A DNA stretch of 37,251 nucleotides from a virus, in IMG/VR virus record IMGVR_UViG_3300035670_000663, positions 1 through 37,251 of that record; one strand, written 5' to 3'. A model generated the notes under the pieces. The model did not search any database. It saw only the letters and a program-made list of their open reading frames with translations, and was not told the origin of the DNA. How positions within the stretch are numbered: position 1 is the first letter of the stretch; each line of letters begins with the position of its first letter. Position numbers and translations under genes: made by a program. Below, piece by piece: positions 9,427 through 30,361 of this stretch.

Positions 9427-9714
9427 TTGCTTAAGTTGCCAGTGGCTTGGAGTGAATGGTTAGTCCCGAGATTAAGCATTTCTGCAGAAGCGCAGATGCA
9501 CAGTCACCTCTCCGCAATCAAACGTGAAGGGCCTGAGAACGTTGACCAGCTTGTGAACATTGCTTGCTCACTGGCTCAACAAAATGCAATGCAATCTGCA
9601 ATCATTCGTCAAGCCATCCATCACGTGAGTCTGCTTGAAATGCAGGCCGAGCTAAACAACCGCAAGCATCCCCCACGGATCATCCGCTGGTTGCTTGACC
9701 TGTTTAGCCAATAG
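9427..9714 (+). CDS. Small helical protein, convergent with the sigma factor gene
   Basis: The frame gives up to 95 residues from TTG at 9427; later TTG, GTG or ATG (9496) starts are possible. The core (EAQMHSHLSAIKREG, then SLAQQNAMQSAIIRQAIHHV) is a convincing pair of amphipathic helices and recalls short helical proteins of picocyanobacteria. The 3' end overlaps the end of the sigma factor gene by about 63 bases on the opposite strand. The DNA is less GC-rich than its surroundings. The function is unknown; the arrangement would let one transcript oppose the other. Confidence 0.5.
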   Translation: MLKLPVAWSEWLVPRLSISAEAQMHSHLSAIKREGPENVDQLVNIACSLAQQNAMQSAIIRQAIHHVSLLEMQAELNNRKHPPRIIRWLLDLFSQ

Positions 9715-10581
9715 CATCTGCCGCTGCAGGGCCTTGTAGGCTCGTTCAGCTTGAAGCCTGACTGCTTCACGGGTCACATTCAGTTTGCGACCAATGGCCG
9801 TAAACGTGTGTGGCTCGTTGCCATCCAAGCCATAGCGCAGCTTGATGATCAACTGTTGCCGTTCAGGCAGCGCAGCCATGGCCGTGCTCAATAGTTCCGT
9901 GTCAATCTGATCTGACACCTGTTCAAGATGCTGGTCCGCATCAGAGCCATCCCCGATCAGTGCGCCAAGATCACTGCCATCATCAAAGATGGCAATATCA
10001 AGGCTGGCGCAGGGTGCAGCCAGCAGCAGGGCCCTTTCGTATTCATCTTCAGTGATGCCCATTGCTTCGGCCACTTCTGGCCTGCTGGGCTGCCGGCCTA
10101 GCTCACCGGCTAGCCGCTGGATGATGCGGTTATGCCCCATAAACTTCTCAGCAATCTTGTGGGGCAGCCTGATTGGTCTACCGTTGGCCTCGATGCCACG
10201 GGTCATCATTTGAGTGATCCACCAGTAGGCATAGGTGGAAAACTTGTAGCCCCGTTCAGGGTCAAACTTCTCAACGCCACGGATCAGGCCGAGGATGCCG
10301 TCTTGCATCATGTCTTCGGCACTAGCCTGGAATCCACCCATGGACCGCTGGCGTTTACGGCAGATGGCTGCCACCAGCTTGAGGTTGGCGCTGATCATGC
10401 GATTGCGAGCAGCGATGCCGCGTTTGATGATCCGCTGTTCAGCTGTGGTGTAGGGCCCGCTGTTTTCCTCTTTGAGCTGCATCATGGCTTGGATGCGGCG
10501 GCCTAGGTGGATTTCTTCTGCTGGCGTGAGGAGGGGAATCCTGCCGGCCTCGTTCAAGAAAACATCAAGGGTGTCTTTCAT
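9652..10581 (-). CDS. RpoD-like RNA polymerase sigma factor, cyanobacterial type
   Basis: The product is 309 residues from the ATG that overlaps the dcd stop (TAATG); the longer open frame to 10707 lies inside dcd and is rejected as a start. Region 1.2 is seen as DVFLNEAGRIPLLTPAEEI (6-24), region 2 as NRMISANLKLV through GYKFSTYAYWWITQMMTRGI (60-130) with the -10 recognition helix, and region 4.2 as a helix-turn-helix around TAIGRKLNVTREAVRLQAER (261-280). Region 1.1 is absent, as in group 2/3 factors. It should redirect host RNA polymerase to particular promoters. Being last of a leftward early operon and inside a phage, it probably drives phage late or lysogeny-linked transcription; that target is inference. 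Confidence 0.92.
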   Translation of the reverse strand: MKDTLDVFLNEAGRIPLLTPAEEIHLGRRIQAMMQLKEENSGPYTTAEQRIIKRGIAARNRMISANLKLVAAICRKRQRSMGGFQASAEDMMQDGILGLIRGVEKFDPERGYKFSTYAYWWITQMMTRGIEANGRPIRLPHKIAEKFMGHNRIIQRLAGELGRQPSRPEVAEAMGITEDEYERALLLAAPCASLDIAIFDDGSDLGALIGDGSDADQHLEQVSDQIDTELLSTAMAALPERQQLIIKLRYGLDGNEPHTFTAIGRKLNVTREAVRLQAERAYKALQRQMLLAKQVKQPADDPWGMLAVV

Positions 10582-11102
10582 TAGAGGTGTCCTCGACTGG
10601 CAGTGACAATCTGATCGCCGTTGTAGTTCCCAACGACCGCATAGCTTTTGATTGGCACGTCGGCCATTACATAGAAGATCATCTGGCCGATCTTCATGCC
10701 AGGCCAAATTGGCACCGCATGAAGCTGTCTGCTGTTGTGCAGTTCAAGCGTCATCACTGAACCGTTGAATCCAGGGTCCGCAAACCCTGCAAGAAGATGC
10801 TCAATCCCTTCCCTGGCCCTGCTGGACTTCAGGACGAACTGTGCCGCTAGATCGACTGGGATATTGAAGACCTCAAGGGTCTGGGCTAGCACAAACTCAC
10901 CGGGGCGCATCATGTACGGGTGCTCTTGGCTGTGGTGCTCGAGCGGATACGGGACCAGCTGCGGTGATTGGGCAGACTCAATCAAGAGCGTGCTGCCAAG
11001 CCTGACGTCAAGGCTTGCTGGGTTGACCAGTGCTGGATCAAACGGTGTGACCATGCCGCCATCACAGCGAGCCTTGATCTGAAAATCAGCAAGAATGCCC
11101 AT
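10581..11102 (-). CDS. dcd: dCTP deaminase
   Basis: This 173-residue protein has the length and trimeric dUTPase-type motifs of dCTP deaminase: KSSRAREG near 92-99, AGFADPGFNG at 105-114 and LELHN at 119-123, where Glu120 is the probable catalytic residue. It converts dCTP to dUTP, feeding dTTP synthesis for phage DNA. A bifunctional deaminase-dUTPase is possible. Its stop overlaps the sigma factor start, so the two are coupled. A 47-base spacer separates it from the upstream gene. Confidence 0.9.
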   Translation of the reverse strand: MGILADFQIKARCDGGMVTPFDPALVNPASLDVRLGSTLLIESAQSPQLVPYPLEHHSQEHPYMMRPGEFVLAQTLEVFNIPVDLAAQFVLKSSRAREGIEHLLAGFADPGFNGSVMTLELHNSRQLHAVPIWPGMKIGQMIFYVMADVPIKSYAVVGNYNGDQIVTASRGHL

Positions 11103-11149
11103 TGGCTTGTTTGGTGTTGAATAACGGAGAATTGATCGGGTGGTCTTGT

Positions 11150-11752
11150 TTAAGCAGTCTTCCAGTGGTAACCAGCAGCGGTCTCATTTGTATTGAGCAC
11201 TGCTCTTAGCCGTTGTGGGGTCACATAAACTGACTTTGCCGCTCGATAGATTGACGAATACCGCCGCCCGCGCTCAATGCAGATCACAGGTTTGCGGGCC
11301 CATGGTTTCGGCAGTTCCATGGCTACGATTCGCGCTGCGGTCTTCTCGTTGTTAAAGAGCATGACCAGCGTTGATTCAGACTGCCCACCAAATAGGTAAG
11401 GCCGTTCTTCGGCCAATCGCCGCAAGCTATCCCTGGTAAAGAAGTGGACGTTATGTGGACCGTGGGGATAGTCGCGGGTTTTCAACCAGCCATTGGCAAT
11501 CCACCGTTGGACGGTTGAATGCGAAACCCTCATGAGCTGGGCCACAAAACCAGTCGTGACCCATTCACCAGTGGATCGCCGCTGAAGGCCAAGGCCATCG
11601 CACTTTCGCTTTAGGGCAGTCTCTGACCGCTCGATGAAGCCCCGACCTTTGGCCTGACTGTTGTAAGCAGGCGTGACCATTGGCCAGGGCATATCACCAC
11701 AGAGCGACATCAGAATTTCAAGTTCTGCGTCAGACCAGTGGCGATGTCCCAT
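11150..11752 (-). CDS. DNA-binding protein with HTH and NUMOD1-like module
   Basis: This is a 200-residue protein. Residues 4-55 form a SANT/Myb-like helical segment (HWSDAELEILM...). Residues 65-115 contain a MerR-like helix-turn-helix (TTGFVAQLMRVSHSTVQRWI) followed by a wing. The last 40 residues (YSSIYRAAKSVYVTPQRLRAVL then AGYHWK) match the NUMOD1-type module found in homing endonucleases. No HNH or GIY-YIG nuclease core is visible, so it may be a regulator or a nuclease remnant that kept its DNA-binding parts. Its start lies one base after the upstream stop. Confidence 0.65.
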   Translation of the reverse strand: MGHRHWSDAELEILMSLCGDMPWPMVTPAYNSQAKGRGFIERSETALKRKCDGLGLQRRSTGEWVTTGFVAQLMRVSHSTVQRWIANGWLKTRDYPHGPHNVHFFTRDSLRRLAEERPYLFGGQSESTLVMLFNNEKTAARIVAMELPKPWARKPVICIERGRRYSSIYRAAKSVYVTPQRLRAVLNTNETAAGYHWKTA

Positions 11753-11753
11753 C

Positions 11754-12077
11754 TCAGAATGCAGGCTCTTCGGATGAGAGGGTCACAGCTTGTGGGTTGA
11801 TGGTGCCAAAGCTGCCGCGCTGGCCATCACGACCTTTGCCGTTGATGTAGACGCCAGTAACCTCAACCTCGCTCTTGGTTGCATAATCCCAGATCTTGCC
11901 CGTCTTATGACGGGAAGGATCATCAGCCAAGTTCATCAGGTACTGGGCAAAGGCATACGCTGATTCCAGTGGGATGAATAGCGACAGGTTAATGGGGTTT
12001 TTGCCCGACTGGTCATACCTGTTCTCTCCAGTGCTCCACTTCACTGGCTTGGGCAATGCAGGAGTAAAATCGCTCAT
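11754..12077 (-). CDS. Conserved-looking hypothetical protein of the early operon
   Basis: This 107-residue protein has a short polar start, a helix (ESAYAFAQYLMNLAD) and then beta strands with a GKGRDGQRGSFGTINP turn. It overlaps its upstream neighbour by four bases (ATGA) and ends one base before the next start, so it is an integral operon member. Position next to ERF might hint at DNA metabolism, but no motif for ssDNA binding or catalysis was recognised. Confidence 0.6.
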   Translation of the reverse strand: MSDFTPALPKPVKWSTGENRYDQSGKNPINLSLFIPLESAYAFAQYLMNLADDPSRHKTGKIWDYATKSEVEVTGVYINGKGRDGQRGSFGTINPQAVTLSSEEPAF

Positions 12078-12298
12078 GGGATTGGGGGGAGTTGATAGTG
12101 TTGACGAATGATGCGGTGGGCCATTCCGCTAACGGTCAGGCCATTAGTTGAGGCATCTGCTACAAGCAGTTCATGGGCATCAGGCCAGAGGTAAACGCCA
12201 ACGCGATGGCCGCTGTCAGTGCCAAAAAGTGCTTGCCGCATCTGGTGTGCTTCGCTGCTGCGACCAAGACGCTTGCGTTCGTTAGCCCTAGTGCTCAT
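12074..12298 (-). CDS. Ribbon-helix-helix-like small DNA-binding protein
   Basis: The product is 74 residues from the ATG at 12298, which overlaps the upstream stop (ATGA) and has GGAGG 12 bases ahead; a longer start at 12319 would invade the upstream gene. A basic N-terminus is followed by RVGVYLWPDAHELL and then TNGLTVSGMAHRIIRQHY, the strand then helix-Ser-helix pattern of Arc/CopG-type proteins. It is probably a dimeric transcription regulator. It is one of several such small proteins here. Confidence 0.55.
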   Translation of the reverse strand: MSTRANERKRLGRSSEAHQMRQALFGTDSGHRVGVYLWPDAHELLVADASTNGLTVSGMAHRIIRQHYQLPPIP

Positions 12299-12552
12299 GA
12301 GCAGCCCGAGACCTCCCAAGCATCCAAGCGATCAGGTGCGCTTGGGTTGATGTTGAAGATGACGCTGGCCACTTGCACATCGGAAACCTTGTAGAACTCC
12401 CGTGTGGCCCGCAGCTGCTCAAGCACAGTCTCCATAAGCGTGTAGCGGAACGCTTGCCGTGGGTCGGCTGTCCAGGTCAGTTTCCCGTTCAGTGCTCCTG
12501 ATAGGTACTGCCCCGTCTCCGTGTGCTGCACTAGGAAACGTTCCCGTTGCAA
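12295..12552 (-). CDS. Hypothetical protein, start uncertain, overlaps upstream frame
   Basis: From about 12552 to 12295 this frame reads as good protein (QRERFLVQHTETGQYLSGAL, then helices with VLEQLRATREFYKVSDVQV). Upstream in the same frame, back to an ATG at 12726, it is low-complexity Ser/Thr/Arg and looks like an off-frame shadow. A TTG at 12552 or GTG at 12531 could start it. Alternatively it is the second half of the protein beginning at 12745, joined by a +1 shift. The function is unknown. Confidence 0.45.
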   Translation of the reverse strand: MQRERFLVQHTETGQYLSGALNGKLTWTADPRQAFRYTLMETVLEQLRATREFYKVSDVQVASVIFNINPSAPDRLDAWEVSGCS

Positions 12553-12745
12553 GCATGGTGCGGAGTTCAGCGGCAATCCGCTCGAGGACTGCTCGCCGGA
12601 CGCAGTGTGTCCCATAGGCCGTGATGCGTGATTCAAAGGCTGCCGCAGCGAAGACTTTGTGCTCGTCCTGCTCGAGCTGACGGCTGGCCTTGTCGATGTG
12701 GTGGATCGCATAGACGATGTGCTCATGAGTCGATGCCTGTGACAT
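12419..12745 (-). CDS. Hypothetical helical protein downstream of erf
   Basis: The product is 108 residues from the ATG at 12745, overlapping the end of erf by 23 bases. Residues 8-70 form convincing helices (HIVYAIHHIDKASRQLEQDE, then VRRAVLERIAAELRTML). From about residue 70 the quality drops (Gly/Thr/Arg/Pro-rich), just where the neighbouring frame becomes protein-like. Either this is a gene with a long overlap, or the real product switches frame. No family was recognised. Confidence 0.45.
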   Translation of the reverse strand: MSQASTHEHIVYAIHHIDKASRQLEQDEHKVFAAAAFESRITAYGTHCVRRAVLERIAAELRTMLATGTFPSAAHGDGAVPIRSTERETDLDSRPTASVPLHAYGDCA

Positions 12746-13445
12746 TGGAGATGGTCTGCGAGAGGAAGTCGATGTGCTCTTGCGTCTTGATGTGGTCTGC
12801 GATGCCGACACCTGCAGGCAGGCCGTATTGCAGACGGAACGCATCGACCAGTTGGGAACGCTGGTCAGGATCAAGAGCAAGGATGGCCTTCTTGATGGCA
12901 TTCAGCGCATCAGGGGAGGCAGCAGGGACTGCTGGGACCGCTGGGGCAGGGGAAGAAGTCTGCGGCTTGCTTGCGGGTGCAGGCTTAGCGGCAGCGCGAG
13001 CAGGCTTGCTAGTGCTAGCAGCTTTGGGCTGATCAAAAGCATCCCCGTCATCATCTGGAATGCCAGCAGCCAGTCCAAGCATCGCCAGCACCGCATAGCG
13101 TCGCTGATAGGTCACGGCGCCGCCCCAATCGTGCAAAGCGTTGCCACGACTGGAGCTTGGTGTCAGCAAGGGCAGCTCAGAGCGTTCTTCCTCGCCGGAC
13201 GTGTGCTTGAGGCTAGTGACCAGCATCGTGCCAAGACCGTCCTCAGAAGGCCAAGGCCGAAAGGTCTGGGACAGGCGAATGCCGCACTCGGCCAGCTTGG
13301 GGAGGATCTCACCGAGAACCGTGGCTAGGTCGGCATAAGTGCCGTACTGAGCTTTTGAGGTTTCGTGGATGGTGCCGACTTTCTTGTGAAAATCGACCAA
13401 GGCGGCAGTGAGGGGACTACCAGTGGATGGAGAGGGGTTAGGCAT
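12723..13445 (-). CDS. erf: ERF-family single-strand annealing protein
   Basis: This 240-residue protein anneals complementary single strands in phage recombination and genome circularisation. Residues 10-135 carry the ERF core, including GGAVTYQRRYAV (108-119) and the acidic PDDDGD (130-135), the family hallmark. Residues 140-190 are an Ala/Pro/Ser/Lys linker, and 190-240 form a helical C-terminal domain probably for partner contacts. A promoter-like sequence with tandem CTAG sites lies directly upstream. A PD-(D/E)XK nuclease on the rightward operon is a plausible exonuclease partner. Confidence 0.85.
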   Translation of the reverse strand: MPNPSPSTGSPLTAALVDFHKKVGTIHETSKAQYGTYADLATVLGEILPKLAECGIRLSQTFRPWPSEDGLGTMLVTSLKHTSGEEERSELPLLTPSSSRGNALHDWGGAVTYQRRYAVLAMLGLAAGIPDDDGDAFDQPKAASTSKPARAAAKPAPASKPQTSSPAPAVPAVPAASPDALNAIKKAILALDPDQRSQLVDAFRLQYGLPAGVGIADHIKTQEHIDFLSQTISNVTGIDS

Positions 13446-13468
13446 GGGCTAGGCCCGTGGACCCCTCA

Positions 13469-13498
13469 ACACTACCCCTAGTAGTGACTAGTGGTCAA
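13469..13498 (-). promoter_or_regulatory. Promoter of the leftward early operon with tandem CTAG operator
   Basis: On the minus strand TTGACC (13493-13498) and TAGTGT (13469-13474) are separated by 18 bases, giving a sigma-70-type promoter for erf. Two CTAG tetramers (13488-13491 and 13478-13481) lie in the spacer, ten bases apart. The same CTAG-N6-CTAG unit occurs at three other early intergenic sites, so it is a strong operator candidate. Confidence 0.55.
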
Positions 13499-13509
13499 GG
13501 GATTGGCGG

Positions 13510-14220
13510 CTAGCGCGGGCAAAGCTCTCGAAACTCAGCGCACAGCTCGTCCGAGTCGCACCATTCCTGCATCGCTTCAATCGCTGGATTCCGCCCACGG
13601 TCATTGGTCATCTCAGCCAGCTCCGCAGGCTTCCAGACCTTGTGGCCGCCAAGCACCAGCTTGAAGGCTGCCACCTGTTCCCTCGTCATACCCGTGCAGT
13701 GCTGCTGCAGGTCACGCCAGGCCTCCTGTCTGTCCATCAGGCAGTCCTGCGCATGGCGTAGGAACATTTCTCGCTGCTGGTTGCTCAGGCGTTCTGCTGC
13801 TTCCTCGCTGATCGCCCATTCCCGTTCCTTCAGCGCCCAGTCAGGGGCATCCTCCAGCCCGCAGAAGTGGGCGAAGAAGTCCACGGCGGTCCATGGCTGG
13901 CCATCCGGTCTACAGATCGGCTCCTGAGCCTTGATCTGATCGATCAGCCGGCGGTCAGCAATCGTCCCAAATTCCCTGCGGTGCAGGCGGTCGTTAGCGA
14001 GGCCAAGCTGAATGAAGGTCAGCGGCAGCGGCTGCGGGGTCTGGCCACGCTCGATTTTGTTCCAAACCGCATCAGTGACCGAGCTGAAGCCTGCTGATTT
14101 GCCCCATCGGCTCAGCGTGTCCTGCTTCCACCCGGCCCGTAATCGCCAGAGCTTGAGCGTTCGACCAAAGGTCACCCTGGCCTCTTGGCCGGGGAATAGC
14201 TCTCTGTCGGTTTCGGCCAT
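13510..14220 (-). CDS. XRE-type HTH protein, candidate lysogeny repressor
   Basis: This is a 236-residue protein. Residues 15-75 hold a helix-turn-helix of the XRE/Cro type (FGRTLKLWRLRAGWKQDTLS, later VWNKIERGQTPQPL). The remaining 150 residues are helical, rich in Trp, Glu and Arg, and do not look like a LexA-type cleavable peptidase, so RecA-triggered self-cleavage is not indicated. It sits between the integrase and the leftward early promoter, the usual place for a repressor. Repressor is inference; an early activator is possible. Confidence 0.65.
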   Translation of the reverse strand: MAETDRELFPGQEARVTFGRTLKLWRLRAGWKQDTLSRWGKSAGFSSVTDAVWNKIERGQTPQPLPLTFIQLGLANDRLHRREFGTIADRRLIDQIKAQEPICRPDGQPWTAVDFFAHFCGLEDAPDWALKEREWAISEEAAERLSNQQREMFLRHAQDCLMDRQEAWRDLQQHCTGMTREQVAAFKLVLGGHKVWKPAELAEMTNDRGRNPAIEAMQEWCDSDELCAEFRELCPR

Positions 14221-14241
14221 GGCGGGTGTCCTTATGCGAAA

Positions 14242-14255
14242 CCTGCATCGGCAGG
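14242..14255 (-). promoter_or_regulatory. Perfect hairpin in the leader of the HTH gene
   Basis: CCTGC and GCAGG (five base pairs) flank a four-base loop in the 75-base gap between the integrase stop and the HTH start. TTGCAG lies upstream on the minus strand, but no clear -10 box follows at normal spacing. It could be an operator or a leader hairpin. Confidence 0.3.
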
Positions 14256-14295
14256 CCCTTTCAGTATCGGCTGCAACAGCAGCACACAGCCATAA

Positions 14296-15969
14296 CTAGC
14301 GGCTTTCTGCAGCTTGCCGGGATTCGGGCGCTGGCGCAATACCCCCCTCTGTCACCTCTTGTACGAGTTGGCCTGCTTCCGCTAGCCTCCCCCCGGCCCA
14401 CAGGACACGGCGGTCCAACGGGCGCATGGTCTGCCATTCCAGTGGCCCACCGGGCAACCCCAGCCCCATTCGGCGCTCTTCGCCATCAATCACGATCCGT
14501 AGCCCCAGCTCCCGCAGGCACCGATTGACAGCCCTGCGCTGCTCGCTGCTGTCTTCCCCTAACGCAAACGCTTGACGGAACGCTGCTAGCGGCTGAGCGG
14601 CTGCTTCAGATTTGCTGCTGTCTTGCTGCACCGCCAGCTGGGCCTCGAGCCCCATCAGTTCCTGTTCAAGTGTGTTGGCCTCCTTCTGCCGAAGGCTGAG
14701 CTGCTCAGACAGCACCTCGACCGCCAGGCCCTGCTCCGCTGCCTTGACCAGGGCCCGCTCGAGGTTTTGACGTTTGGTCTTGATGGCAGCCAACTCAGCT
14801 TTGAGGTGCTCGGCACGCTGCTGCAGGCCTGATGCCCCATCGCTGGCCTGTGCGGCCTCGACCATCGCCAGCAGGGCCTCTGGTTCCAGCCTGCGCAACA
14901 GATGGGCAGTGGCATCAAGCAACGGCACGTTGGCCCTGCGACAACCGTCGTTATGGCTTGCCCGGTGACGGCAGTACAGATAGCGGTATTCGCTTGAGCC
15001 GGAGCTGACGATGCCGACCCGTGTGCCGCAAATGCAATGCGTCAACCCCTGACCAACAAAACGCATCGTGCCGTTGGGCCCTGCCTGCTCAGCGGTCCTG
15101 CCCCGCTGGCGCATGATCTCCCGCACGGCCATGACCTTGGCCTTGTCCACGACCACCGGCAGCACGTCTTCATACAGCTGCTCCTGAGCATCCTTGCCGT
15201 GATGACGCCTGCTGTTTAGGCGTAGCCCGCCATAGACCGCATCGGTGTTCATGGCCAGGTTGCGGACAGAGCCATTCGTCCAGCGGTTGCCTGAAGGGGT
15301 CAGGAGGCCTTTGGCATTGAGATCCCTGGCCGTGGCCGATGCCCCTTGGTAGCGGAGCATCTCAAAGCACAGCTTGATCGTCTTGACCTTGGCCTGATCG
15401 ACCACATACCCCTGCTCGTCCCATTCGCACCAGGCAGGGCAGAAATGGCGGGGCCGTGGGTTGACGTTGGCCTCGAGCTTGGCGCGGTGAGCCTGCCAGC
15501 TGCCTTGCATCCGCATGGCCAAGCGAGCGGAGTATTCGTAGGCCGCCTGAATCTTGACCACCAGCACGATGAGTTTGCTTGGGTCGGAGCGAAGGGTGGC
15601 CCTGCTGTATTCGCTGCCGTCTTCCAAGGTCACGATGCGGACGCCGCTACCGACTAGGCCGCTGAGGATGGTTTCAATGGCATCCAAGGGCTCCTGTCTG
15701 CTCAAGCGGTCAATGGCCTCGACCAGCAGCAGCGGTGTGGTGCCGAGTTGGCCAGCTTGTGCCAGCTGCAGGAACCTGCCTAAGGCCCCCTTGCTGAGGT
15801 GGTCACCCTTGGAGGCTGAGCGGCCCGCATCACAGAGGTGCAGGGTGGTATCCAGCTGCAGGCCATGGCGTGCTGCCCATTCCTGCGCTGCCCCGCTCTG
15901 ACGCCCCAGACCGCTGCCTGTGACCTGCTGCTTGGAGCTGACGCGCTCGTAGCTGAAGACCCGTTCCAT
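14296..15969 (-). CDS. int: Large serine recombinase (phage integrase)
   Basis: This 557-residue protein integrates or excises phage DNA. Residues 1-150 form the resolvase catalytic domain, with YERVSS (Ser11 as nucleophile) and EAIDRLSR (84-91). Residues 170-255 match the recombinase domain (LNAKGLLTPSGNRWTNGSVR at 217-236). A zinc-ribbon follows with Cys312, Cys314, Cys333 and Cys343, then a coiled coil at about 382-447 and a C-terminal tail. The size and order are those of phage integrases rather than small resolvases. It implies a temperate lifestyle. The attP site should lie next to the gene; candidates are the gaps on either side. Confidence 0.9.
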   Translation of the reverse strand: MERVFSYERVSSKQQVTGSGLGRQSGAAQEWAARHGLQLDTTLHLCDAGRSASKGDHLSKGALGRFLQLAQAGQLGTTPLLLVEAIDRLSRQEPLDAIETILSGLVGSGVRIVTLEDGSEYSRATLRSDPSKLIVLVVKIQAAYEYSARLAMRMQGSWQAHRAKLEANVNPRPRHFCPAWCEWDEQGYVVDQAKVKTIKLCFEMLRYQGASATARDLNAKGLLTPSGNRWTNGSVRNLAMNTDAVYGGLRLNSRRHHGKDAQEQLYEDVLPVVVDKAKVMAVREIMRQRGRTAEQAGPNGTMRFVGQGLTHCICGTRVGIVSSGSSEYRYLYCRHRASHNDGCRRANVPLLDATAHLLRRLEPEALLAMVEAAQASDGASGLQQRAEHLKAELAAIKTKRQNLERALVKAAEQGLAVEVLSEQLSLRQKEANTLEQELMGLEAQLAVQQDSSKSEAAAQPLAAFRQAFALGEDSSEQRRAVNRCLRELGLRIVIDGEERRMGLGLPGGPLEWQTMRPLDRRVLWAGGRLAEAGQLVQEVTEGGIAPAPESRQAAESR

Positions 15970-16185: not shown

Positions 16186-16365
16186 ATGGCTGACGAGACC
16201 CGCGCCCTCCTCGCTGAAGCGGAGGCTTCCCGGCAAGAGACCGAACAGATCCTTGCTGAACTGGATGCCGCGCTGAAAGCGTACGGACGCTCAATCGAGC
16301 AAGGGCTGGCCTTGGCCGCAGAGATGCGCGACCTAGCCGCCCAGCTTGAGGAGTGGTTCTGCTGA
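16186..16365 (+). CDS. Small coiled-coil protein, first rightward early gene
   Basis: The product is 59 residues from an ATG with CCGGAGA just upstream, a spacing matched by the next gene. The protein is almost entirely Ala/Glu/Leu helix with a heptad-like pattern and ends in WFC. It is probably a coiled-coil adaptor. No family was recognised. A hairpin follows its stop. Early position near the lysogeny region suggests a host-takeover or regulatory role, as inference only. Confidence 0.6.
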   Translation: MADETRALLAEAEASRQETEQILAELDAALKAYGRSIEQGLALAAEMRDLAAQLEEWFC

Positions 16366-16370
16366 GGGAT

Positions 16371-16386
16371 GCCCCCAACTGGGGGC
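16371..16386 (+). terminator. GC hairpin after the first early gene
   Basis: GCCCCC, loop AACT, GGGGGC: six perfect base pairs five bases after the stop codon, without a T-run. It may be an attenuator or processing hairpin between this gene and the next. Confidence 0.4.
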
Positions 16387-16463
16387 TGAGTATTTCACCG
16401 GCACATGCCCGGCACGGCCTGGAAGCGATGGCCTGCAGGGCACACCATTACCGGAGAACACCA

Positions 16464-16841
16464 ATGTCCACTAGCACCATGGCCGGCACTGCTGGCCGCA
16501 TCACTGGTACAGCTGCCAAAGGTCTGATCTGGGCTTACCGCACCATTGATTGGGCCGAGGTCGGCGCGATCGTGCTGCACGGCCTTCAGGTTCTGATCGT
16601 GCTGACGCTCCTGGCTGGCAGGTACAGCCGCCGCGCATGGGACACGGTGCCAGTCCTGAGTGAACAGCTCGGCCACTGGTACGCCGGCCTGATCGCACCA
16701 ACGCCAGCCCCAGCCCCAGCACCCACACCAGCGCGTCAGCGTGCCGAACTCGAGCAGCTCACATGCCGTCAGCTCATGGCCATCACCGGCACCCGCAGGA
16801 AGCTCGCCAAGCGTCACCTCATTGAGCTGGCCTTGGCCTAG
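16464..16841 (+). CDS. Membrane protein with C-terminal SAP-like motif
   Basis: The product is 125 residues from the ATG preceded by CCGGAGA; longer starts upstream lack this site. A hydrophobic segment (about 32-51, VGAIVLHGLQVLIVLTLLAG) is followed by an Ala/Pro repeat linker (80-92). The end, LEQLTCRQLMAITGTRRKLA then a Lys/His helix, resembles a SAP or Rho-N type nucleic-acid-binding motif. A membrane anchor joined to a DNA/RNA-binding tail could tether DNA to the membrane. Its TAG stop lies inside a CCTAGG palindrome that also ends the opposing gene. Confidence 0.55.
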   Translation: MSTSTMAGTAGRITGTAAKGLIWAYRTIDWAEVGAIVLHGLQVLIVLTLLAGRYSRRAWDTVPVLSEQLGHWYAGLIAPTPAPAPAPTPARQRAELEQLTCRQLMAITGTRRKLAKRHLIELALA

Positions 16842-17287
16842 GAACCAGGCAGTTGACGACGGGAGCGTTTCGGCGTTCCCTTGATCGCCTTCTTGCCACC
16901 TGTGCTGCCACCAGTCATCTGCGTTACGCCACGGAAGTATCGAGCATCGGATTGGGCCAGATTTTGCAAGGTGCCCCGCAACGCATCGCTGACACGACCA
17001 GTGCGGCCTGTGCTGCCTACTGCCGTTGAGGCACCCTGCTGCACTCCTCGGCGGATGCCACCACGGATCAGGCGAAGGCCTGCCACGCTCCCGCCACCAG
17101 AGATTTTCATCAGCCCTTGGGCGCGGACCTGCTCGGCCTTATACAGCTCGGTCTGACCACGACGCAAGGCACGGGTCATGGACCCCCCTTTGGGCTGCGG
17201 GCGTTCCTGCTTGGCGCGAGAGACGACACCACCACCTTTCGACGAGAACCGTCCCTGTTTATCGCGCACGTAATTGCGGACGGCCAT
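16838..17287 (-). CDS. Basic Gly/Arg-rich protein with N-terminal RDKQGRF motif
   Basis: The product is 149 residues from the ATG at 17287. It starts with a RDKQGRF motif at residues 8-14, then low-complexity basic sequence rich in Gly, Arg, Ser and Lys. Two other proteins of the head region begin nearly the same way, although this gene sits alone on the minus strand in the early region. It probably binds nucleic acid or a phage structural partner. Ribosomal proteins and known toxins do not fit. It is divergent from the next gene, with an 80-base gap. Confidence 0.6.
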   Translation of the reverse strand: MAVRNYVRDKQGRFSSKGGGVVSRAKQERPQPKGGSMTRALRRGQTELYKAEQVRAQGLMKISGGGSVAGLRLIRGGIRRGVQQGASTAVGSTGRTGRVSDALRGTLQNLAQSDARYFRGVTQMTGGSTGGKKAIKGTPKRSRRQLPGS

Positions 17288-17367
17288 GGCTGCTGCTCCC
17301 TGGCCATAGGTTTCCAGCGGTCCTGCTGCCCTCGTTACGGTCAGCGGCAGATCGCTGCTATCAGCAC

Positions 17368-17541
17368 ATGGCAAAACGGATCACGCTGACCCTGGCCCCT
17401 GAGCTGCTGGAGGAGGTGGTCAAGGCCAAGCCGAAGGCCTTGAGCCTCTCGACCTACTGCGCCTTGCTGGTCGAGCGTGGCATGGGGACAGGGGAGGCCG
17501 TAGGGCAAGACCGTCACGTTGAGCACTTGACCAGCGGCTAG
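17368..17541 (+). CDS. Ribbon-helix-helix-like regulator of 57 residues
   Basis: The short protein has a strand (RITLTLAPELLEEVV) followed by helices around SLSTYCALLVERGM, the typical Arc/CopG/MetJ-like layout. It should dimerise and bind operator DNA. Its TAG stop forms the first CTAG of a tandem CTAG-N6-CTAG site, which it might bind itself. It is divergent from the basic protein gene at 17287. The fold call is by pattern only. Confidence 0.6.
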   Translation: MAKRITLTLAPELLEEVVKAKPKALSLSTYCALLVERGMGTGEAVGQDRHVEHLTSG

Positions 17542-17551
17542 CCGTCGCTAG
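17527..17551 (+). promoter_or_regulatory. TTGACC and tandem CTAG operator-like site
   Basis: TTGACC (17527-17532) is followed by CTAG at 17538-17541 and 17548-17551, ten bases apart. Further CTAG tetramers at 17571 and 17586 make this 61-base gap unusually rich in a normally rare word. A good -10 box is not obvious (TAGTCT at 17549). It probably controls the gene at 17602. Confidence 0.5.
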
Positions 17552-17601
17552 TCTCCCGTGCGTGCCGGCCCTAGTCGTCGGCTACCTAGGAGCTATCGCT
17601 A

Positions 17602-18240
17602 ATGCCTCAGCTGAATTTCACGATTCCAGAGTCCCTGCTAGCCAGGATCGACGCCGCAGTCCCCGAATACCTAGACAGGAAGGGCTTTCTCTGCCTGTTG
17701 ATCGATCAGGCGCTTGACTCGTCTGGTACGCTGGGAGCCACGAGCGCAGCCGGGGCTCCCTCTACTTCTTCTCTTCTTACTTCTTCTATAGAAGAAGAGA
17801 ATAAAACCTATAAAAACAATACGCGCGCGCGCGAGCTTTTGACGCCGCGTGATCTTGGGACGAATCCACGTGCCAGGCGCGACCCGTATGCGAGGAGGAT
17901 GCTGCCTGAGGATGCGGTGCCTGCTGAGCTGAAGGAGGTGGAGGATTTGCTGAGGGAGTTCTGGAGCGTGAAGAAGGGAACACGCTCTGAGCGGGCCTGG
18001 AAGCGGCTTTGCAACAAGCTCAGCACCTTTGCCCCAAAGGACCGCGTACCGGCTCTCCAGGCGGCTTGTAACGCGGGCTGGGCGGACATTTACGAGCCAG
18101 CTCCTGCCCGGCCTCGTTTTGGTAGCCCTAGCGATCCCTTGGATGTGCCCAAGCACCCGGCCAGCAGGCTGTTTCAGAACGGGCGGTTTGTGGATGAGGA
18201 CGGCCCCACGACCAATCCGGCCCTGCAGGGCCTCTTCTGA
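17602..18240 (+). CDS. Replication-type protein with RHH-like N-terminus
   Basis: This 212-residue protein has an AGGAG site nine bases before the ATG. Residues 1-40 (LNFTIPESLLARIDAAVPEY) look ribbon-helix-helix-like and resemble the preceding small protein. Residues 45-95 are a Ser/Thr then Arg-rich linker encoded by unusually AT-rich DNA with an 18-base palindrome and a CG-alternating tract. Residues 100-165 are helical (LLREFWSVKKGTRSERAWKR), like domains in phage and plasmid replication proteins. Origin-like DNA inside a replication gene recalls lambda O. The replication role is inference. Confidence 0.55.
   Translation: MPQLNFTIPESLLARIDAAVPEYLDRKGFLCLLIDQALDSSGTLGATSAAGAPSTSSLLTSSIEEENKTYKNNTRARELLTPRDLGTNPRARRDPYARRMLPEDAVPAELKEVEDLLREFWSVKKGTRSERAWKRLCNKLSTFAPKDRVPALQAACNAGWADIYEPAPARPRFGSPSDPLDVPKHPASRLFQNGRFVDEDGPTTNPALQGLF
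17763..17834 (+). other. AT-rich palindromic tract, candidate replication origin
   Basis: Inside the replication-type gene a pyrimidine tract leads into an 18-base perfect palindrome, CTTCTTCTATAGAAGAAG (17780-17797), then two ATAAAA units, then an alternating CG run (17822-17832). The composition contrasts sharply with the GC-rich surroundings. Palindrome, AT-rich unwinding-type DNA and location in a candidate initiator gene fit an origin. Confidence 0.4.
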
Positions 18241-18244
18241 CCCC

Positions 18245-18274
18245 TTGCCCATTTGCGGTAACTAGGGCTATCGT
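18245..18274 (+). promoter_or_regulatory. Candidate promoter before the 195-residue unknown gene
   Basis: TTGCCC (18245-18250) and TATCGT (18269-18274) are 18 bases apart, with a CTAG at 18262 in the spacer. The downstream leader holds the CTGTCCCACCCTTCA repeat just before the ATG at 18330. Confidence 0.4.
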
Positions 18275-18306
18275 CAGAACAAGCGCAAGCGTCTTGACGC
18301 TTCGCC

Positions 18307-18321
18307 CTGTCCCACCCTTCA
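18307..18321 (+). repeat. Pyrimidine-rich 15-base leader repeat, copy 1
   Basis: CTGTCCCACCCTTCA lies eight bases before the ATG at 18330, in place of a Shine-Dalgarno site. An identical copy sits nine bases before the ATG at 18982. Confidence 0.6.
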
Positions 18322-18329
18322 GAACACTC

Positions 18330-18917
18330 ATGACCATCACGCTTCCACGTCGGGAGAAGGCTGCCGCCAAGGTCGGTCCTCGTCTCGAAATCTCACCCCT
18401 CGAACTGCGCGGTGAACTCGAAAACGAGCACGGCCTCTCATCCCTGCTTGCCAATGCTTCCTCCTGGGAACCCTTCGCCTGGAAAGGCAACGACCTGTCT
18501 GCTCCCCTTCGTGCCCTCTACGTGGCCGAAGCCCGTGGCCTCCTTTCCAAGCGTGGTGAGCGTGCTGTTGATGTGGCCATCGCAGACATCACCGCTGACA
18601 TCAACGGCTACCTGATGAGCTTCGGCAAACCACCCGTCAGCGAAAACGCTGTCCTCAACAACCTCAAGCAGGCCTCCCTGTACGTCAACGCTGCGGTTGG
18701 TGTTGCTGTCGTCCCTGACCGCAAGGCCATGACCGTTCGCTTTGTTGATGGCATCGAGACAGCAGAAAACATCGAGCGGTACTTCTCGTCGATGTCCAGC
18801 AAGCTGCAAAAGCTCGGTTCACAGCTCAAGCACGCTGAAGCCTGCGGTTACGACATCAGCCATGTCCTCAGTGCTGCTGAGGCATCAACTGGCGTCAAGC
18901 TCCTGCCTGCTGGCTGA
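18330..18917 (+). CDS. Hypothetical early protein of 195 residues
   Basis: The ATG at 18330 follows the 15-base leader repeat; no purine-rich ribosome site is present. The N-terminus is basic, then helices alternate (LSAPLRALYVAEARGLLSKR, AVDVAIADITADINGYLMSF), with a beta section (AVGVAVVPDRKAMTVRFVDG) and a long C-terminal helix (ERYFSSMSSKLQKLGSQLKH). It is soluble and probably DNA-associated from location. No family was recognised. A hairpin terminator follows directly. Confidence 0.65.
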   Translation: MTITLPRREKAAAKVGPRLEISPLELRGELENEHGLSSLLANASSWEPFAWKGNDLSAPLRALYVAEARGLLSKRGERAVDVAIADITADINGYLMSFGKPPVSENAVLNNLKQASLYVNAAVGVAVVPDRKAMTVRFVDGIETAENIERYFSSMSSKLQKLGSQLKHAEACGYDISHVLSAAEASTGVKLLPAG

Positions 18918-18931
18918 TCCCCTCATCAATC

Positions 18932-18957
18932 AAGCCCCTGCCCACTAGCGGGGGCTT
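18932..18957 (+). terminator. Intrinsic terminator-like hairpin
   Basis: AAGCCCC (18932-18938) pairs with GGGGCTT (18951-18957) across a 12-base loop containing CTAG. There is no clear T-run, so termination may be partial. Confidence 0.5.
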
Positions 18958-18972
18958 CTGTCCCACCCTTCA
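18958..18972 (+). repeat. Pyrimidine-rich 15-base leader repeat, copy 2
   Basis: This copy is identical to 18307-18321 and lies nine bases before the ATG at 18982. It directly follows the terminator stem. Confidence 0.6.
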
Positions 18973-18981
18973 TCCCCTCTC

Positions 18982-20058
18982 ATGTCAACTGCTATCACCC
19001 CAGAGGTTGTCGGACTAGACAACCCAACCCAGGTCTTGGAAACCAGTCCCATCACCGCTGCGGAGGTTCAATCACGCCATCGGCGGATGGTCAAGATCAA
19101 AGCGGCCCAGCTGGAAAAGATGGAGAGGGATCTCTTCATCGGTCAGCAGCTGCTGGAGATCACCCGCACCAAGGAATACCGTGGCCTCAACGAAGGTGAA
19201 TCCGGCCTGACGTTTGAGGACTGGCTTAGGGCTGAGTCGGCGGAGATGATGCCTGACGGCAAGCCCATGGACAGAAAGACCGCAGGCTACCTGCGCGGTT
19301 TCTATTACTTCCGCCAAGAGGTTCTGGGTCCGGCCGCGGCCGCGGCGGCACACAAGGGTATCCCCCTGCCGACCTCGGCCTATCAAGTGCGCCCTCTGCT
19401 GTTCCTGCTGGATCACCTCCACCGAGAAGATCACAGCGATCCGCGTTACAAGTCCTACGACGAGCGCCGAGCTGCTGAGGCTAAGGCCATCGAAATATGG
19501 AAGGCTGCAGTAAGCCAAGCCAACGGAGTCCCGACCTTTGAGCAGGTCAACGAAGCCCGCTTGCGTGATGCTGCTGCTGAAGAGCACCGACTCCGTGGGG
19601 CCCAGCGTCCTGCACCAAGTCTTGATAGGCCAAGCCCTGGCATAGCTCCTCCTGCTTCATCCGATCACAACCCAACCGACACCACTTTCTTCAACCCACA
19701 GCCAACCAGCACCTCACCGGCACCAACCATCCCCGCTTGGGAGCTGCAAAAAGACGACAACAGCCTTGATGCTGCCGCCGAATGCAAGAAGGTATCCCGT
19801 GCCATCAATGAAGCCCACAAGGCCATTGGCCTCCTCCGTGGCATCCTCTACAGCCAAATCCACAAATATGGCCGCGACTATCTCGGCTTCCTTCGTCAAG
19901 TCGATGCAGGCGTCTACAGCCTTCATGCCATCGACGACCAAATCCAGCAGATGGGTGAAGACATTGATTTCATCGCCTCACTTCTTGTTGCTGATGTTGG
20001 CGAGGGCGAGCTAGCGCAAGCCACAATTGACATTCACGCCATTCCTACCCGTGCATGA
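18982..20058 (+). CDS. ParB-related or DUF3102-like DNA-binding protein
   Basis: This is a 358-residue protein. Residues 30-115 (FIGQQLLEITRTKEYRGLNE, FEDWLRAE, KTAGYLRGFYYFRQ) resemble phage and plasmid proteins that start with a 'how long to decide' helical module. Residues 125-205 (LPTSAYQVRPLLFLLDHLHR, then IWKAAVSQANGVPTFEQVNE) follow the LP-x-x-x-Q-x-RPL ... V pattern of ParB-associated DNA-binding domains. A Pro/Ser linker (205-250) leads to a helical C-terminal domain. It may organise replication or partition. It uses the leader repeat in place of a Shine-Dalgarno site. Confidence 0.5.
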   Translation: MSTAITPEVVGLDNPTQVLETSPITAAEVQSRHRRMVKIKAAQLEKMERDLFIGQQLLEITRTKEYRGLNEGESGLTFEDWLRAESAEMMPDGKPMDRKTAGYLRGFYYFRQEVLGPAAAAAAHKGIPLPTSAYQVRPLLFLLDHLHREDHSDPRYKSYDERRAAEAKAIEIWKAAVSQANGVPTFEQVNEARLRDAAAEEHRLRGAQRPAPSLDRPSPGIAPPASSDHNPTDTTFFNPQPTSTSPAPTIPAWELQKDDNSLDAAAECKKVSRAINEAHKAIGLLRGILYSQIHKYGRDYLGFLRQVDAGVYSLHAIDDQIQQMGEDIDFIASLLVADVGEGELAQATIDIHAIPTRA

Positions 20059-20061
20059 GAA

Positions 20062-20081
20062 AGGGGGCCTGCAAGCCCCCT
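20062..20081 (+). terminator. GC-rich hairpin after the ParB-related gene
   Basis: AGGGGGC and GCCCCCT (seven base pairs) enclose a six-base loop four bases after the stop. No T-run follows; it is probably a terminator or an mRNA-end stabiliser. Confidence 0.45.
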
Positions 20082-20116
20082 CCCTCTGATCAGTCGTCCC
20101 ACCGATCTCTTCCATT

Positions 20117-20608
20117 ATGAACCCCGCCACACAGGACCGCATCCGTAAAGCAGCCCAGGATGCCCTCGCTGATCGTGATGACACCTCAGCACTCGAGCTG
20201 CTGGCCCTGCTCGCACCACAGCTACAGCTGATCCCTCAGCCTTCACCGCAGCTTCCCTTTGCTGCCCTACCACCCGCCAAGCAGGTCATTGAAGGCCCTG
20301 CCCATGATTACCACTACTGGATGCGGTTGATCCGTGAGCACTTCATCCCGTTCATGACGGAAAACGGCAGGCTGAAGTTCACCAGCCATGAGCTGCTCTC
20401 CTGGATTCAGCACCGCAGCGACCTGGCCCTGAGCAGCGGTGACCTGACAACCCACAGCTGTGGCCGTGAAACCTGGCGCAACATCGTTGGTAACGCTCTC
20501 ACTGCCCTCAAGCAGATGGGTGTGGTCTCTGCTGCTCCTTTTTCCAAGGGTTACACCATCAACACTGAGCAGACCAGCTACGCCCCAACCCAGCCGTTGC
20601 TGAATTGA
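20117..20608 (+). CDS. Hypothetical protein with possible winged-helix C-terminus
   Basis: This 163-residue protein follows a TCCCACC-containing pyrimidine leader related to the two upstream leader repeats. The N-terminal helices are followed by a Pro/Gln stretch (40-60). The C-terminal half (FTSHELLSWIQHR, then WRNIVGNALTALKQMGVV and YTIN) has the helix-helix-strand order of a winged helix, so it may bind DNA. No family was recognised. It belongs to the replication-recombination block. Confidence 0.6.
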   Translation: MNPATQDRIRKAAQDALADRDDTSALELLALLAPQLQLIPQPSPQLPFAALPPAKQVIEGPAHDYHYWMRLIREHFIPFMTENGRLKFTSHELLSWIQHRSDLALSSGDLTTHSCGRETWRNIVGNALTALKQMGVVSAAPFSKGYTINTEQTSYAPTQPLLN

Positions 20609-27782: not shown

Positions 27783-29258
27783 ATGCTTAATACCACCGGC
27801 CCTGTTCAGCTTCTGACCACGCCCAGCATCCTTGATCTTCGTGTTCAGGATCCTGGCCTTGCCTGGAGGCGGATGCAACCCCGTTGGGAGTTGCTTGAGG
27901 CACTCTCCGGTGGCACCCTCCAAATGCAGGCCCTAGCCACCAAATGGCTGCCGCAGGAACCCAAGGAAGCTGACGAGTCATATAAGAACAGGCTGGCCAG
28001 CTCGATCTGCCCGCCATACTTCCAGCGAATGGAAGCCATGCTGGCCGGCATGGTGACCCGTAAGCCTATCCGGCTTGATGGTGTTTCTGATGTTGTAACC
28101 GAGCACCTGTATGACGTAGACCTACAGCAAAACGATCTACAGGTCTGGGCCTATAACTTTTGCCGTCAGCTTATACGTTACGGCCACATGGGCGTTTTGG
28201 TTGATTATGGCCGTGGCGAAGATGGCCAAACTACTGATCGTCCGTATTGGGTTAGCTATACCCCTCGGGATATTCTTGACTGGCGTGCAGACCTGCGGGA
28301 TGGCACGCAGAAGCTGACCATGCTCAGGCTGCATGAACGCCTAGAGCTGCCCTACAACGAATGGGGCACCGAGGTGGTTGAGCAGGTCAGGGTGCTCGAG
28401 CCTGGCCGGTTCCGGTTGTTCCGCAAGCGTCCCAGTCAAGGTGGCGACTGGACGTTGGTTGATGAAGGTCAGACCAGCCTGCCTGATATTCCCTTTGCCG
28501 TGGCCTATGCCAATCGCATTGGCCTGTTGGAGTCGGCTCCGCCGCTGGAAGAGATCGCCTGGCTGAACCTCAAGGCATACCGCTGCGATAGTGACCAGTC
28601 CAACCTGCTCCATATCTCCGCTACCCCTCGGCAGTTTCTGTACGGTGTGCCTGCAGAGCTGGATGAGATTGACGCTGGGCCCGAGTCGGCCATTGCGTTG
28701 CCGCAGGATGCACGGGTCGAGTTTGTTGAGCCTGCCGGTCAGAGCTTCCAGGCCCGCTTCCAGCAGCTGGAAAAGATCGAACAGCAGATCAATCAGCTTG
28801 GGTTGGCGGCGATCATCGGGCAGAAGATGGCAGCAGAAACGGCCAGTGCTAAGGCCATTGACCGCAGTCAAGGCGATTCAGCCCTGATGAACGTGGCCTT
28901 GCAGTTGCAGGATCTGATCGACAACTGCCTGAAGTTCCATGCGGACTACTTGGGCATTGGTGACCCTGGTAGCAGCATGGTCAACACTGACTTTGTGAGT
29001 CAGCGGCTGGAGCCTGCGCAGATGGCTGAACTGGTCAAGCTGTGGAGCTTGGGCGGCATCACGCTGGAAACCTTGCTGATCCAGTTGGCTGATGGGGAGA
29101 TTTTCGTTGATGACTTTGACGTTGATGCAGAGGTAGAGGCGACCAATGCGCTACGGGAAGCTCGGATGCAGGAACAGGAGGCGATGCTGACGGCCAACCT
29201 GAACGCCCAGCAGCAGGGACAGCAGGAGCAGCCTGAGGAGCAGCAGACGGAAAGCTAG
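27783..29258 (+). CDS. Portal protein, DUF4055-like
   Basis: This 491-residue protein forms the dodecameric ring where DNA enters the head. Recognisable portal features are RMEAMLAGMVTRKPIRL near 80, YWVSYTPRDILDWRADL (about 155-171), the core DIPFAVAYANRIGLL and a helical Gln-rich stem (FQQLEKIEQQINQLGLAAII) at about 325-345. The C-terminus is acidic and Gln-rich. This layout fits the DUF4055 portal family. It is followed by a small basic protein, scaffold and capsid genes in the expected order. Confidence 0.85.
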   Translation: MLNTTGPVQLLTTPSILDLRVQDPGLAWRRMQPRWELLEALSGGTLQMQALATKWLPQEPKEADESYKNRLASSICPPYFQRMEAMLAGMVTRKPIRLDGVSDVVTEHLYDVDLQQNDLQVWAYNFCRQLIRYGHMGVLVDYGRGEDGQTTDRPYWVSYTPRDILDWRADLRDGTQKLTMLRLHERLELPYNEWGTEVVEQVRVLEPGRFRLFRKRPSQGGDWTLVDEGQTSLPDIPFAVAYANRIGLLESAPPLEEIAWLNLKAYRCDSDQSNLLHISATPRQFLYGVPAELDEIDAGPESAIALPQDARVEFVEPAGQSFQARFQQLEKIEQQINQLGLAAIIGQKMAAETASAKAIDRSQGDSALMNVALQLQDLIDNCLKFHADYLGIGDPGSSMVNTDFVSQRLEPAQMAELVKLWSLGGITLETLLIQLADGEIFVDDFDVDAEVEATNALREARMQEQEAMLTANLNAQQQGQQEQPEEQQTES

Positions 29259-29276
29259 AGCAACGTCAGGGTTGCA

Positions 29277-29636
29277 ATGGCTAGGAAGTACGCACGGGAC
29301 AAGAACGGGCGGTTTGCCGGTAAAGGTGGCGCTACCTATGGCAATCGCTCTGACCGTGATTCAGACGACCGCTATTTCAAGCGCGAAACCAAGAAGTTGA
29401 ACGCGGAATCAAAATCACTCAAAGCTCAAAAGGCAAAGCTGGAAAGCAAGCAGCCTTCTGCAAAGGTGGCCAAGGCAACTGCAGGCCTGAAAGCTGCGCG
29501 GGCCAAGAAGGCCGAAGCAACGGCCAAGATCAGCGCCAGCAAGCAGCGCATGGCTGAACTGCAAAAGCAGCTTGATGCCAGTAAGGCCAGACTTGGAGGC
29601 CAATCAGCTACCAAACGTGGTGCAAAACGCCGTTAG
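29277..29636 (+). CDS. Basic coiled-coil protein with N-terminal RDKNGRF
   Basis: This is a 119-residue protein. It begins MARKYARDKNGRFAGKGG, then an acidic patch, then a long Lys/Ala/Gln helix with regular Leu spacing (LKAQKAKLESKQ..., MAELQKQLDASKARL), and ends KRGAKRR. It resembles the basic protein at 27077 at its N-terminus. Position between portal and scaffold suggests an internal head or assembly protein. The molecular role is unknown. Confidence 0.6.
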   Translation: MARKYARDKNGRFAGKGGATYGNRSDRDSDDRYFKRETKKLNAESKSLKAQKAKLESKQPSAKVAKATAGLKAARAKKAEATAKISASKQRMAELQKQLDASKARLGGQSATKRGAKRR

Positions 29637-29677
29637 CACTAGCAAGGCAAGCTAGTTAGCAACTCTGCCCTGTGGGC

Positions 29678-30361
29678 ATGTCTGAAGATCAAGCAACGGC
29701 TCCTGTGGAGTCCAATGCACCTGCTGACCCTCTCAACACTGAACTCGAGGCCCTTCGTCGTAAAAACAAGGAACTCCTAGACGAAGCCAAACGAGCCAAG
29801 GCCAAAGCCCGTGACATTCCTGATGATGTCAACATCCAGGAACTCCTCGACTTCAAGCGCAAGACCGAACAAGCAGAAGCCGAACGCAAGGGCAAATACG
29901 AAGATGCCCTCAAGGTCTACGAACAGCAGTTCCGTGACCGAGAAACCAAGTACCAAGAGCAGATCACTGCCCTCGAGCAAGAGGTCAGGATGCTCAAGCT
30001 GGATTCCCGTGTCGTCTCCAAGCTGGCAGACCAGGTCCACGACCCTGAAGCGGTCCTACGCCTGGAAGGCGACAAGCTGACCCTCAATGATGCCGGTGAA
30101 CCTGTCATCAAGGACGGCTACACCGAAGTGCCCCTTGACCAATGGGTAGCTGACCTGCAGCAGCGCAGGCCGTACCTGTTCAAGCAAGCTGCCAAACCAG
30201 TCGGCACCGGAGCACCTATCGCCACCCGCTCTACTGGTGGTATCCCTGCTGGCCTGAAAAACCCATTCAGCAAGGAACACTTCAACCTCACCGAACAGGG
30301 TCGCCTCTTCAAGACCAACCCTGAACTCTATGCACAGTTAAAAGCAGAGGCAAAGCGGTAA
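29678..30361 (+). CDS. Scaffolding protein
   Basis: The product is 227 residues from the ATG at 29678; a GTG two codons earlier is an alternative. It is acidic at the start, then a long charged coiled coil (about 20-120, EALRRKNKELLDEAKRAKAK onward) and a C-terminal section ending in an amphipathic helix. Scaffold proteins directly before the major capsid gene have this make-up and size. It would direct procapsid assembly and then leave. No protease domain is fused to it. Confidence 0.75.
   Translation: MSEDQATAPVESNAPADPLNTELEALRRKNKELLDEAKRAKAKARDIPDDVNIQELLDFKRKTEQAEAERKGKYEDALKVYEQQFRDRETKYQEQITALEQEVRMLKLDSRVVSKLADQVHDPEAVLRLEGDKLTLNDAGEPVIKDGYTEVPLDQWVADLQQRRPYLFKQAAKPVGTGAPIATRSTGGIPAGLKNPFSKEHFNLTEQGRLFKTNPELYAQLKAEAKR

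Follow-up and report, generated by a model that had tools for sequence, protein, structure and literature searches.

An O-like phage replication gene with a ribbon-helix-helix-like N-terminus and a candidate origin tract in its linker-coding DNA

The replication origin of phage lambda lies within the gene of its own initiator; PMC7466680 describes ori as a set of iterons accompanied by an AT-rich tract, located centrally in O, and two of the iterons together with that tract suffice for unwinding. A viral record of 37,251 bp (IMGVR_UViG_3300035670_000663; hereafter the window, meaning the whole stretch analyzed) raises the question of whether a comparable arrangement exists in other phages: a first-pass annotation, made from the sequence alone, had described an origin-like palindrome, AT-rich units and a CG tract inside a replication-type gene. 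The reading that we favor, with a probability of about 0.6, is that this gene encodes an O-like initiator with a lambda-like origin, whose binding sites would be found in the leader and whose melting tract would be found in the linker-coding region, the DNA of the gene being itself part of the origin.

The gene and its two-form family

The gene (17602-18240, plus strand) encodes a protein of 212 aa that, searched alone, matched no Pfam and no PHROG profile. In two IMG/VR scans for relatives, 41 and 71 loci were confirmed; counted by name they amount to 72 contigs, many of them near copies, so that the counts given below are not independent. In the annotated phage collection relatives were found only in cyanophage KBS-S-2A (two records) and in Marine virus AG-345-A17, and none of the 92 candidate stretches from a scan of cellular genomes was confirmed as a family member. 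The family combines one C-terminal domain, located in the window at residues 108-158 (17923-18075, plus strand; three predicted helices and an EFWSVKKG motif), with two unrelated N-termini, namely a winged helix and the ribbon-helix-helix (RHH)-like segment of the window. Over residues 93-212 the window protein is 45% identical to CPKG_00028 of KBS-S-2A (HQ634187), annotated as a hypothetical protein. The two share the homologous C-terminal part and a place at a gene-strand switch, whereas CPKG_00028 has a winged-helix N-terminus and CAAAAGG-type iterons in its linker.

Pfam HTH_36 was matched by 11/11 winged-helix members (best E 6.3e-8; the one member printed scored below the Pfam cut-off), and all 11 also matched PHROG 678, "replication initiation O-like" (best E 1.1e-19). 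Among the RHH proteins, this PHROG was matched by 4/10 in a first alignment; in an alignment that mixed 30 RHH proteins with nine winged-helix C-terminal pieces the matches numbered 23/39, which implies that at least 14 RHH proteins reach PHROG 678, the one from the window not being among them. The proposal that this is a replication-type gene is thus supported by the relatives, through C-terminal homology and the kinship of the family to PHROG 678, and the gene appears to be of the lambda-O kind, even though its own protein returned no hit.

A tree of the C-terminal domain (53 rows) placed one change between the RHH and winged-helix forms, with a support of 66 and too few columns to be relied upon. 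Locus L004 was left out of this tree as it carries a different C-terminal domain; its segment 5001-5696 is a mosaic of an L003-like RHH region, a type B-like linker, that different domain and a tail identical to the one of the window (KHPASRLFQNGRFVDEDGPTTNPALQGLF). The linker analyses described below covered, of the 72 contigs, 34 with the RHH form plus the window, and 21 with the winged-helix form plus KBS-S-2A. The 17 further contigs, which either nearly duplicated others or were truncated at the end of a contig, were left out, L055 among them being used for the leader only.

Lambda O begins with a winged helix; the window protein begins instead with about 40 residues (codons 1-39, 17602-17718, plus strand) predicted to form two helices, 10-19 and 26-39, with no strand in a monomer model of middling quality (mean pLDDT 69.4). 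The best profile match of this N-terminus was NikR, an RHH regulator (E 0.39), to which it could also be aligned structurally (VIA-align, Z 4.3 over 41 residues, weak when taken singly). RHH_5 was matched by 2/26 family N-termini (best E 0.02, also weak), and the best Foldseek match in the PDB had an E of only 5.1. Weak one by one (E 0.02-0.39), the profile matches suggest an RHH-like DNA-binding domain.

The regulators omega, CopG and ParG are RHH proteins with tandem-site operators. The RHH form of the present family may resemble RHH regulators (NikR by match) in its N-terminus, putatively of strand-helix-helix type, and in arrays with a spacing of about one helical turn upstream of the gene; the window protein differs from them in its fusion to an O-like replication domain, and its binding to such sites is a prediction. 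In a full-text literature search that covered few subscription papers, none of the matches listed described an RHH domain in a phage replication initiator. Directly upstream of the gene, at 17368-17541 (plus strand), a standalone RHH-like protein of 57 aa is encoded, which resembles the RHH domains of the L054/L087 type and had no hit in a Pfam search; it is a possible source of the fused domain.

The linker-coding DNA

All the elements that had been described at about 17763-17834 were present on inspection of the sequence, and three of them are extremes of the 37,251-bp record. The 18-bp perfect palindrome CTTCTTCTATAGAAGAAG (17780-17797, inside a wider inverted repeat at 17766-17804) is the longest of the record, the runner-up having 16 bp. 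The 12-base alternating CG run (17822-17833) is the longest of its kind, followed by runs of 6 bases (5 with a narrower pattern). A candidate DNA unwinding element at 17777-17821 is the least stable 45 bp, with no weaker region of that length (z -5.3), and the tract ranks first at 30, 45 and 60 bp and third at 80 bp. No strand is assigned to these three features. The polypyrimidine run, although present, does not stand out: its longest pure stretch (17765-17778) has 14 bases, and the record contains runs of 20, 18 and 14 at other places.

Such a composition, palindrome included, might be a by-product of ordinary coding for a flexible linker rich in Ser, Glu and Asn, and the linker is indeed predicted to be disordered (residues 43-73 and 75-77 under pLDDT 50). 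When the protein was kept fixed and synonymous codons were redrawn, with codon use taken from family genes outside the linker, the palindrome (spacer of 0-5 allowed) was reproduced in 6-7/300 resamplings, so that alone it reaches only a p of about 0.02; the AT-richness over 40 bases, by contrast, was reproduced in 0/300 and is not explained by the protein. The coincidence of three record-wide extremes likewise argues against a coding by-product, as do the compensatory changes between repeat arms and the conservation of a TTGAC element across reading frames described next, and we consider this explanation most improbable.

The TTGAC element lies at the junction between the RHH codons and the linker (17714-17718, plus strand) and is conserved at the nucleotide level. 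It was present in all 33 distinct RHH rows (32 in the alignment, with L088 as the 33rd), and its reading frame in L004 and L031 differs from that of the other 30 alignment rows. Inverted repeat 1 (GGGAGCCACG/CGGGGCTCCC, one mismatch; 17733-17760, no strand assigned) begins 19 bases downstream of the first base of TTGAC in the window, and 19-21 bases downstream of it across the RHH linkers. Among the 32 rows retained for this test after dropping duplicates and L088, the repeat exceeded codon resampling at p < 0.05 in 16, with a p of 0.01 for the window, while it was significant in 0/10 rows with a type B linker. Its arms vary among relatives yet stay complementary (GGGAGCC/GGCTCCC, GATAAAACC/GGTTTTATC, GATGAAACC/GGTTTCATC and GGGGACGGC/GCCGTCCCC).

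The combination CTTGACN{6,10}TACGCTGRNAAAACCGAG matched 10 viral stretches, none of them on a contig outside the known family set. Within the window, TTGAC-N6-GGTACGCTG occurs exactly at 17714 and with 2-3 mismatches at seven other places, including 12844, 14801 and 18818; these 8 places compare with 2.96 expected and with at most 7 in 100 shuffles, and a version with N7 misses the 17714 site, where the gap is 6. The linker TTGAC was also considered as part of a promoter and rejected, as no -10 element was seen by eye at the usual distance and a consensus scan of 16800-18400 gave no promoter.

In linkers of the window's type, TTGAC and inverted repeat 1 are followed by the pyrimidine/purine palindrome, A-tracts and the CG tract. 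The arms of the palindrome are longer in L054, L065 and L070 (13 bp, TAATTCTTCTTCT/AGAAGAAGAATTA), and in L057 both sides are altered in a compensatory manner (TAAGTCTTCTTCT/AGAAGAAGACTTA). The closest relative of the window, L003, has only 8-bp arms around a 6-base spacer and is without a palindrome at spacers of 0-5, and L005 and L046 have no arms longer than 4 bp. Other linkers carry inverted repeats of their own. A further repeat of type C linkers, GGGGATGA/TCATCCCC (L011, 5280-5297), is rearranged and kept in L035 as TCGGGGAT/ATCCCCGA, and the type B linkers of L047, L048, L051, L058, L090, L093 and L102 have a small one with a compensatory outer pair (CCAGAGC/GCTCTGG versus GCAGAGC/GCTCTGC).

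AT content exceeded that of codon resampling in 27/35 RHH linkers at p <= 0.0033, those of type B being less AT-rich. The weakest 45 bp of the locus fell within the gene in 24/30 RHH loci, and in 20 of the 30, the window included, it lay at an offset of 158-188; in L047, L090 and L004 it was elsewhere in the linker and in L051 before it. An AT-rich melting tract, as found in lambda O-type genes, is thus predicted in the window by duplex stability, and the AT-rich palindromic tract is probably the DNA-melting part of a phage replication origin. CG-rich tracts occur in many type A linkers, G-runs taking their place in L005, L046 and L102. Some family members, such as L005, L009, L046 and those with type C linkers, have no CG tract, so that an essential role for it is unlikely.

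The iterons that lambda has inside O are another matter. No direct repeats were detected at p <= 0.02 in 18/20 RHH linkers, the exceptions being L011 and L050, and the same test found no direct-repeat pair in the linker of the window. In the winged-helix genes, linker direct repeats exceeded synonymous resampling in 22/22 cases (p <= 0.01, 100 samples each). The unit (A/G)GGTC(G/A)AAAACGACC is read in three frames in L099, L107, L108 and L110, and other units also occur in more than one reading frame elsewhere, which argues that it is the DNA sequence of these repeats that is maintained. Behind the iterons comes an A-rich stretch containing AACCC repeats, which has the lowest duplex stability of its locus in no more than 2/22 winged-helix loci. 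The sister form thus resembles lambda O in having iterons followed by an AT-rich tract in the linker DNA of the gene. The comparison of the window with lambda ori in O, as put forward in the first-pass annotation, therefore holds for the sister linkers with their iterons and for the window linker as the weakest duplex of its record, but the latter has no direct-repeat pair, and the likely initiator repeats lie before the start codon, outside 17763-17834.

Leader repeats and a possible exchange of modules

The 66 bases before the start codon were tested for periodicity in 33 loci of the RHH set (L024, L025 and L088 left out, L055 added). Repeats with a period of 10 or 11 were found in 19 of them at p <= 0.05, with arrays such as ATCCGTTCAA in L054 and GGCGCCAAAC in L109. 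The remaining 14 had no significant period; these include the window itself (p 0.35), L003, L004, L005, L046, L009, L031 and 7/7 loci with type C linkers. Only 3/21 winged-helix leaders reached p <= 0.05, with periods of 13, 13 and 15.

A weight matrix trained on five loci of the window's RHH subtype (L047-L051), to which neither the window nor L046 of the same subtype contributed, identified two candidate RHH iterons in the leader of the window, TCGGCTACCTA at 17578-17588 and GGAGCTATCGC at 17589-17599 (both plus strand). Their positions, -24 and -13, are those used in all five of L047, L048, L049, L050 and L051. The pair ranks second among 74,460 pairs spaced by 11 on both strands and sixth among 223,380 with spacings of 10-12; it falls to rank 4 when the closest training unit is removed and to rank 58 when three units are removed. 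The initiator sites are thus probably before the start codon, judging from these matches. Further upstream, a promoter-like element, TTGACC-16-TAGTCT (17527-17554, plus strand), overlaps CTAG inverted repeats. The same loose pattern was present in 17/20 RHH leaders searched, and a stricter consensus scan of 16800-18400 did not pick up the element. Six CTAG tetramers lie within 150 bases at 17538-17674, more densely clustered than anywhere else in the record, where the mean is 0.39 per 150 bases.

A location between a promoter-like element and the start codon is the classical place for autoregulation. The leader repeats and the linker inverted repeats could accordingly do no more than regulate the gene, as a repressor operator and as mRNA hairpins, with the origin elsewhere, and the region does fold as RNA (z -2.5 on one strand and -2.2 on the other). 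A search of the window against Rfam at gathering scores matched no known structured-RNA family, and no intrinsic terminator was found. The folding of 17714-17800 as single-stranded DNA (z -4.29), the rank of the tract as the weakest duplex of the record and the lambda-like iterons inside the genes of the winged-helix sisters all speak against a role in regulation only. So does a tandem repeat search of the record, which returned three small unrelated rows and no other clear array, though it was also blind to the two candidate leader units. On this evidence we regard regulation alone as rather unlikely. At 34311-34350 the record has an 18-bp tandem repeat, ACCCGTCAAACCCGAGCC, in 2.2 copies.

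In 16 chosen loci with leader repeats, the similarity between leaders followed the RHH subtype whatever the linker type (mean 7-mer Jaccard 0.35-0.37 versus 0.003-0.007), and the similarity between linkers followed the linker type whatever the RHH subtype. The association of leader with RHH domain could be plain linkage of neighbors. Two RHH subtypes and two linker types were seen in every possible pairing (L049, L047, L054 and L058), and TTGAC with inverted repeat 1 sits at the boundary between these exchangeable modules. The two elements might for this reason be mainly a recombination joint through which phages swap N-terminal modules. Homologous joints, however, need the opposite of what is found here, where the repeat sequences differ widely and their symmetry is kept; the AT tract would moreover be left unexplained, and we think this account improbable.

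As part of the split-origin reading, we propose, at even odds, that the RHH domain replaced the winged helix and brought its own iterons, and that RHH-plus-iteron modules and linker modules reassort freely at the TTGAC joint, giving interchangeable cyanophage origin specificities. As the replacing domain would have brought its own iterons, the sites would have moved from inside the gene to the leader, with the melting tract staying in the linker.

A possible division of the origin between leader and linker

In the arrangement that we favor, dimers of the RHH-like N-terminus would occupy a short run of 10-11-bp repeats immediately ahead of the start codon, which would also let the initiator control its own gene. 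The protein would in this way be placed close to the linker-coding DNA, some 180 bp further downstream, where the weakest duplex and the inverted repeats are located. Under negative supercoiling the linker tract would then open, perhaps with extrusion of hairpins, and recruitment of the host helicase would be assisted by the conserved C-terminal domain. A winged-helix domain would play the equivalent part in the sister form via iterons inside the linker, which would imply a joint exchange of the DNA-binding domain with its sites, an AT-rich linker tract and the C-terminal domain being retained. From the arrangement of the sequence we infer that the N-terminus binds the leader repeats, that the strands open, that the helicase is recruited, and that the locus is autoregulated and acts as an origin. 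Among the genes at 18294-20605, downstream, which were unrecognized or gave no loader match, no helicase loader of the P or DnaC-like type was found.

Several observations weigh against a split origin. Iterons and melting tract would lie about 180 bp apart, a distance not usually seen in origins of the lambda type; in addition, the RHH matches are weak, the leader of the window is aperiodic, some loci have no leader repeats and the skew is uninformative. With respect to the last point, a change in GC skew had been suggested as a check. The detrended skew of the window does turn inside the gene, at 18203; this turn, however, is a maximum that coincides with the gene-strand switch, and in KBS-S-2A the homologous gene (16348-17142) contains neither extreme, these being located at 14208 and 33843. 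No skew minimum was found at either gene, so that the check was not decisive and GC skew was dropped as evidence for the origin.

Compared with lambda O/ori, and with O of Stx phages, as described in PMC7466680, the window is alike in having an O-like gene, recognized via PHROG 678 in its relatives, and in having origin-type DNA, an AT-rich tract, in the linker between the DNA-binding N-terminus and the C-terminal domain. It differs in its RHH-like rather than winged-helix N-terminus and in the linker, where no iterons were found; it has candidate 11-bp units before the start codon and inverted repeats beside the AT tract. Since both the winged helix and the iterons inside the gene are missing, the window represents a variant and not a strict member of the lambda O class. 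No description of origins in these cyanosiphoviruses was found by the full-text search of the literature, with its limited coverage of subscription papers; the one match on cyanophage origins and iterons deals, judging from its abstract, with a different system. The family constitutes a natural domain-swap set for testing the coupling between initiator, sites and melting tract; from it, origin positions can be predicted in KBS-S-2A, which is in culture, and in dozens of contigs from uncultured phages.

As to the surroundings of the gene, a minus-strand block at 9652-15969 encodes a sigma factor, an Erf-like annealing protein and a recombinase-type integrase, and the initiator gene is located near the start of the plus-strand block opposite to it. 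In a 1-kb profile of the record, the strongest AT skew was at 29001-30000 (+0.31).
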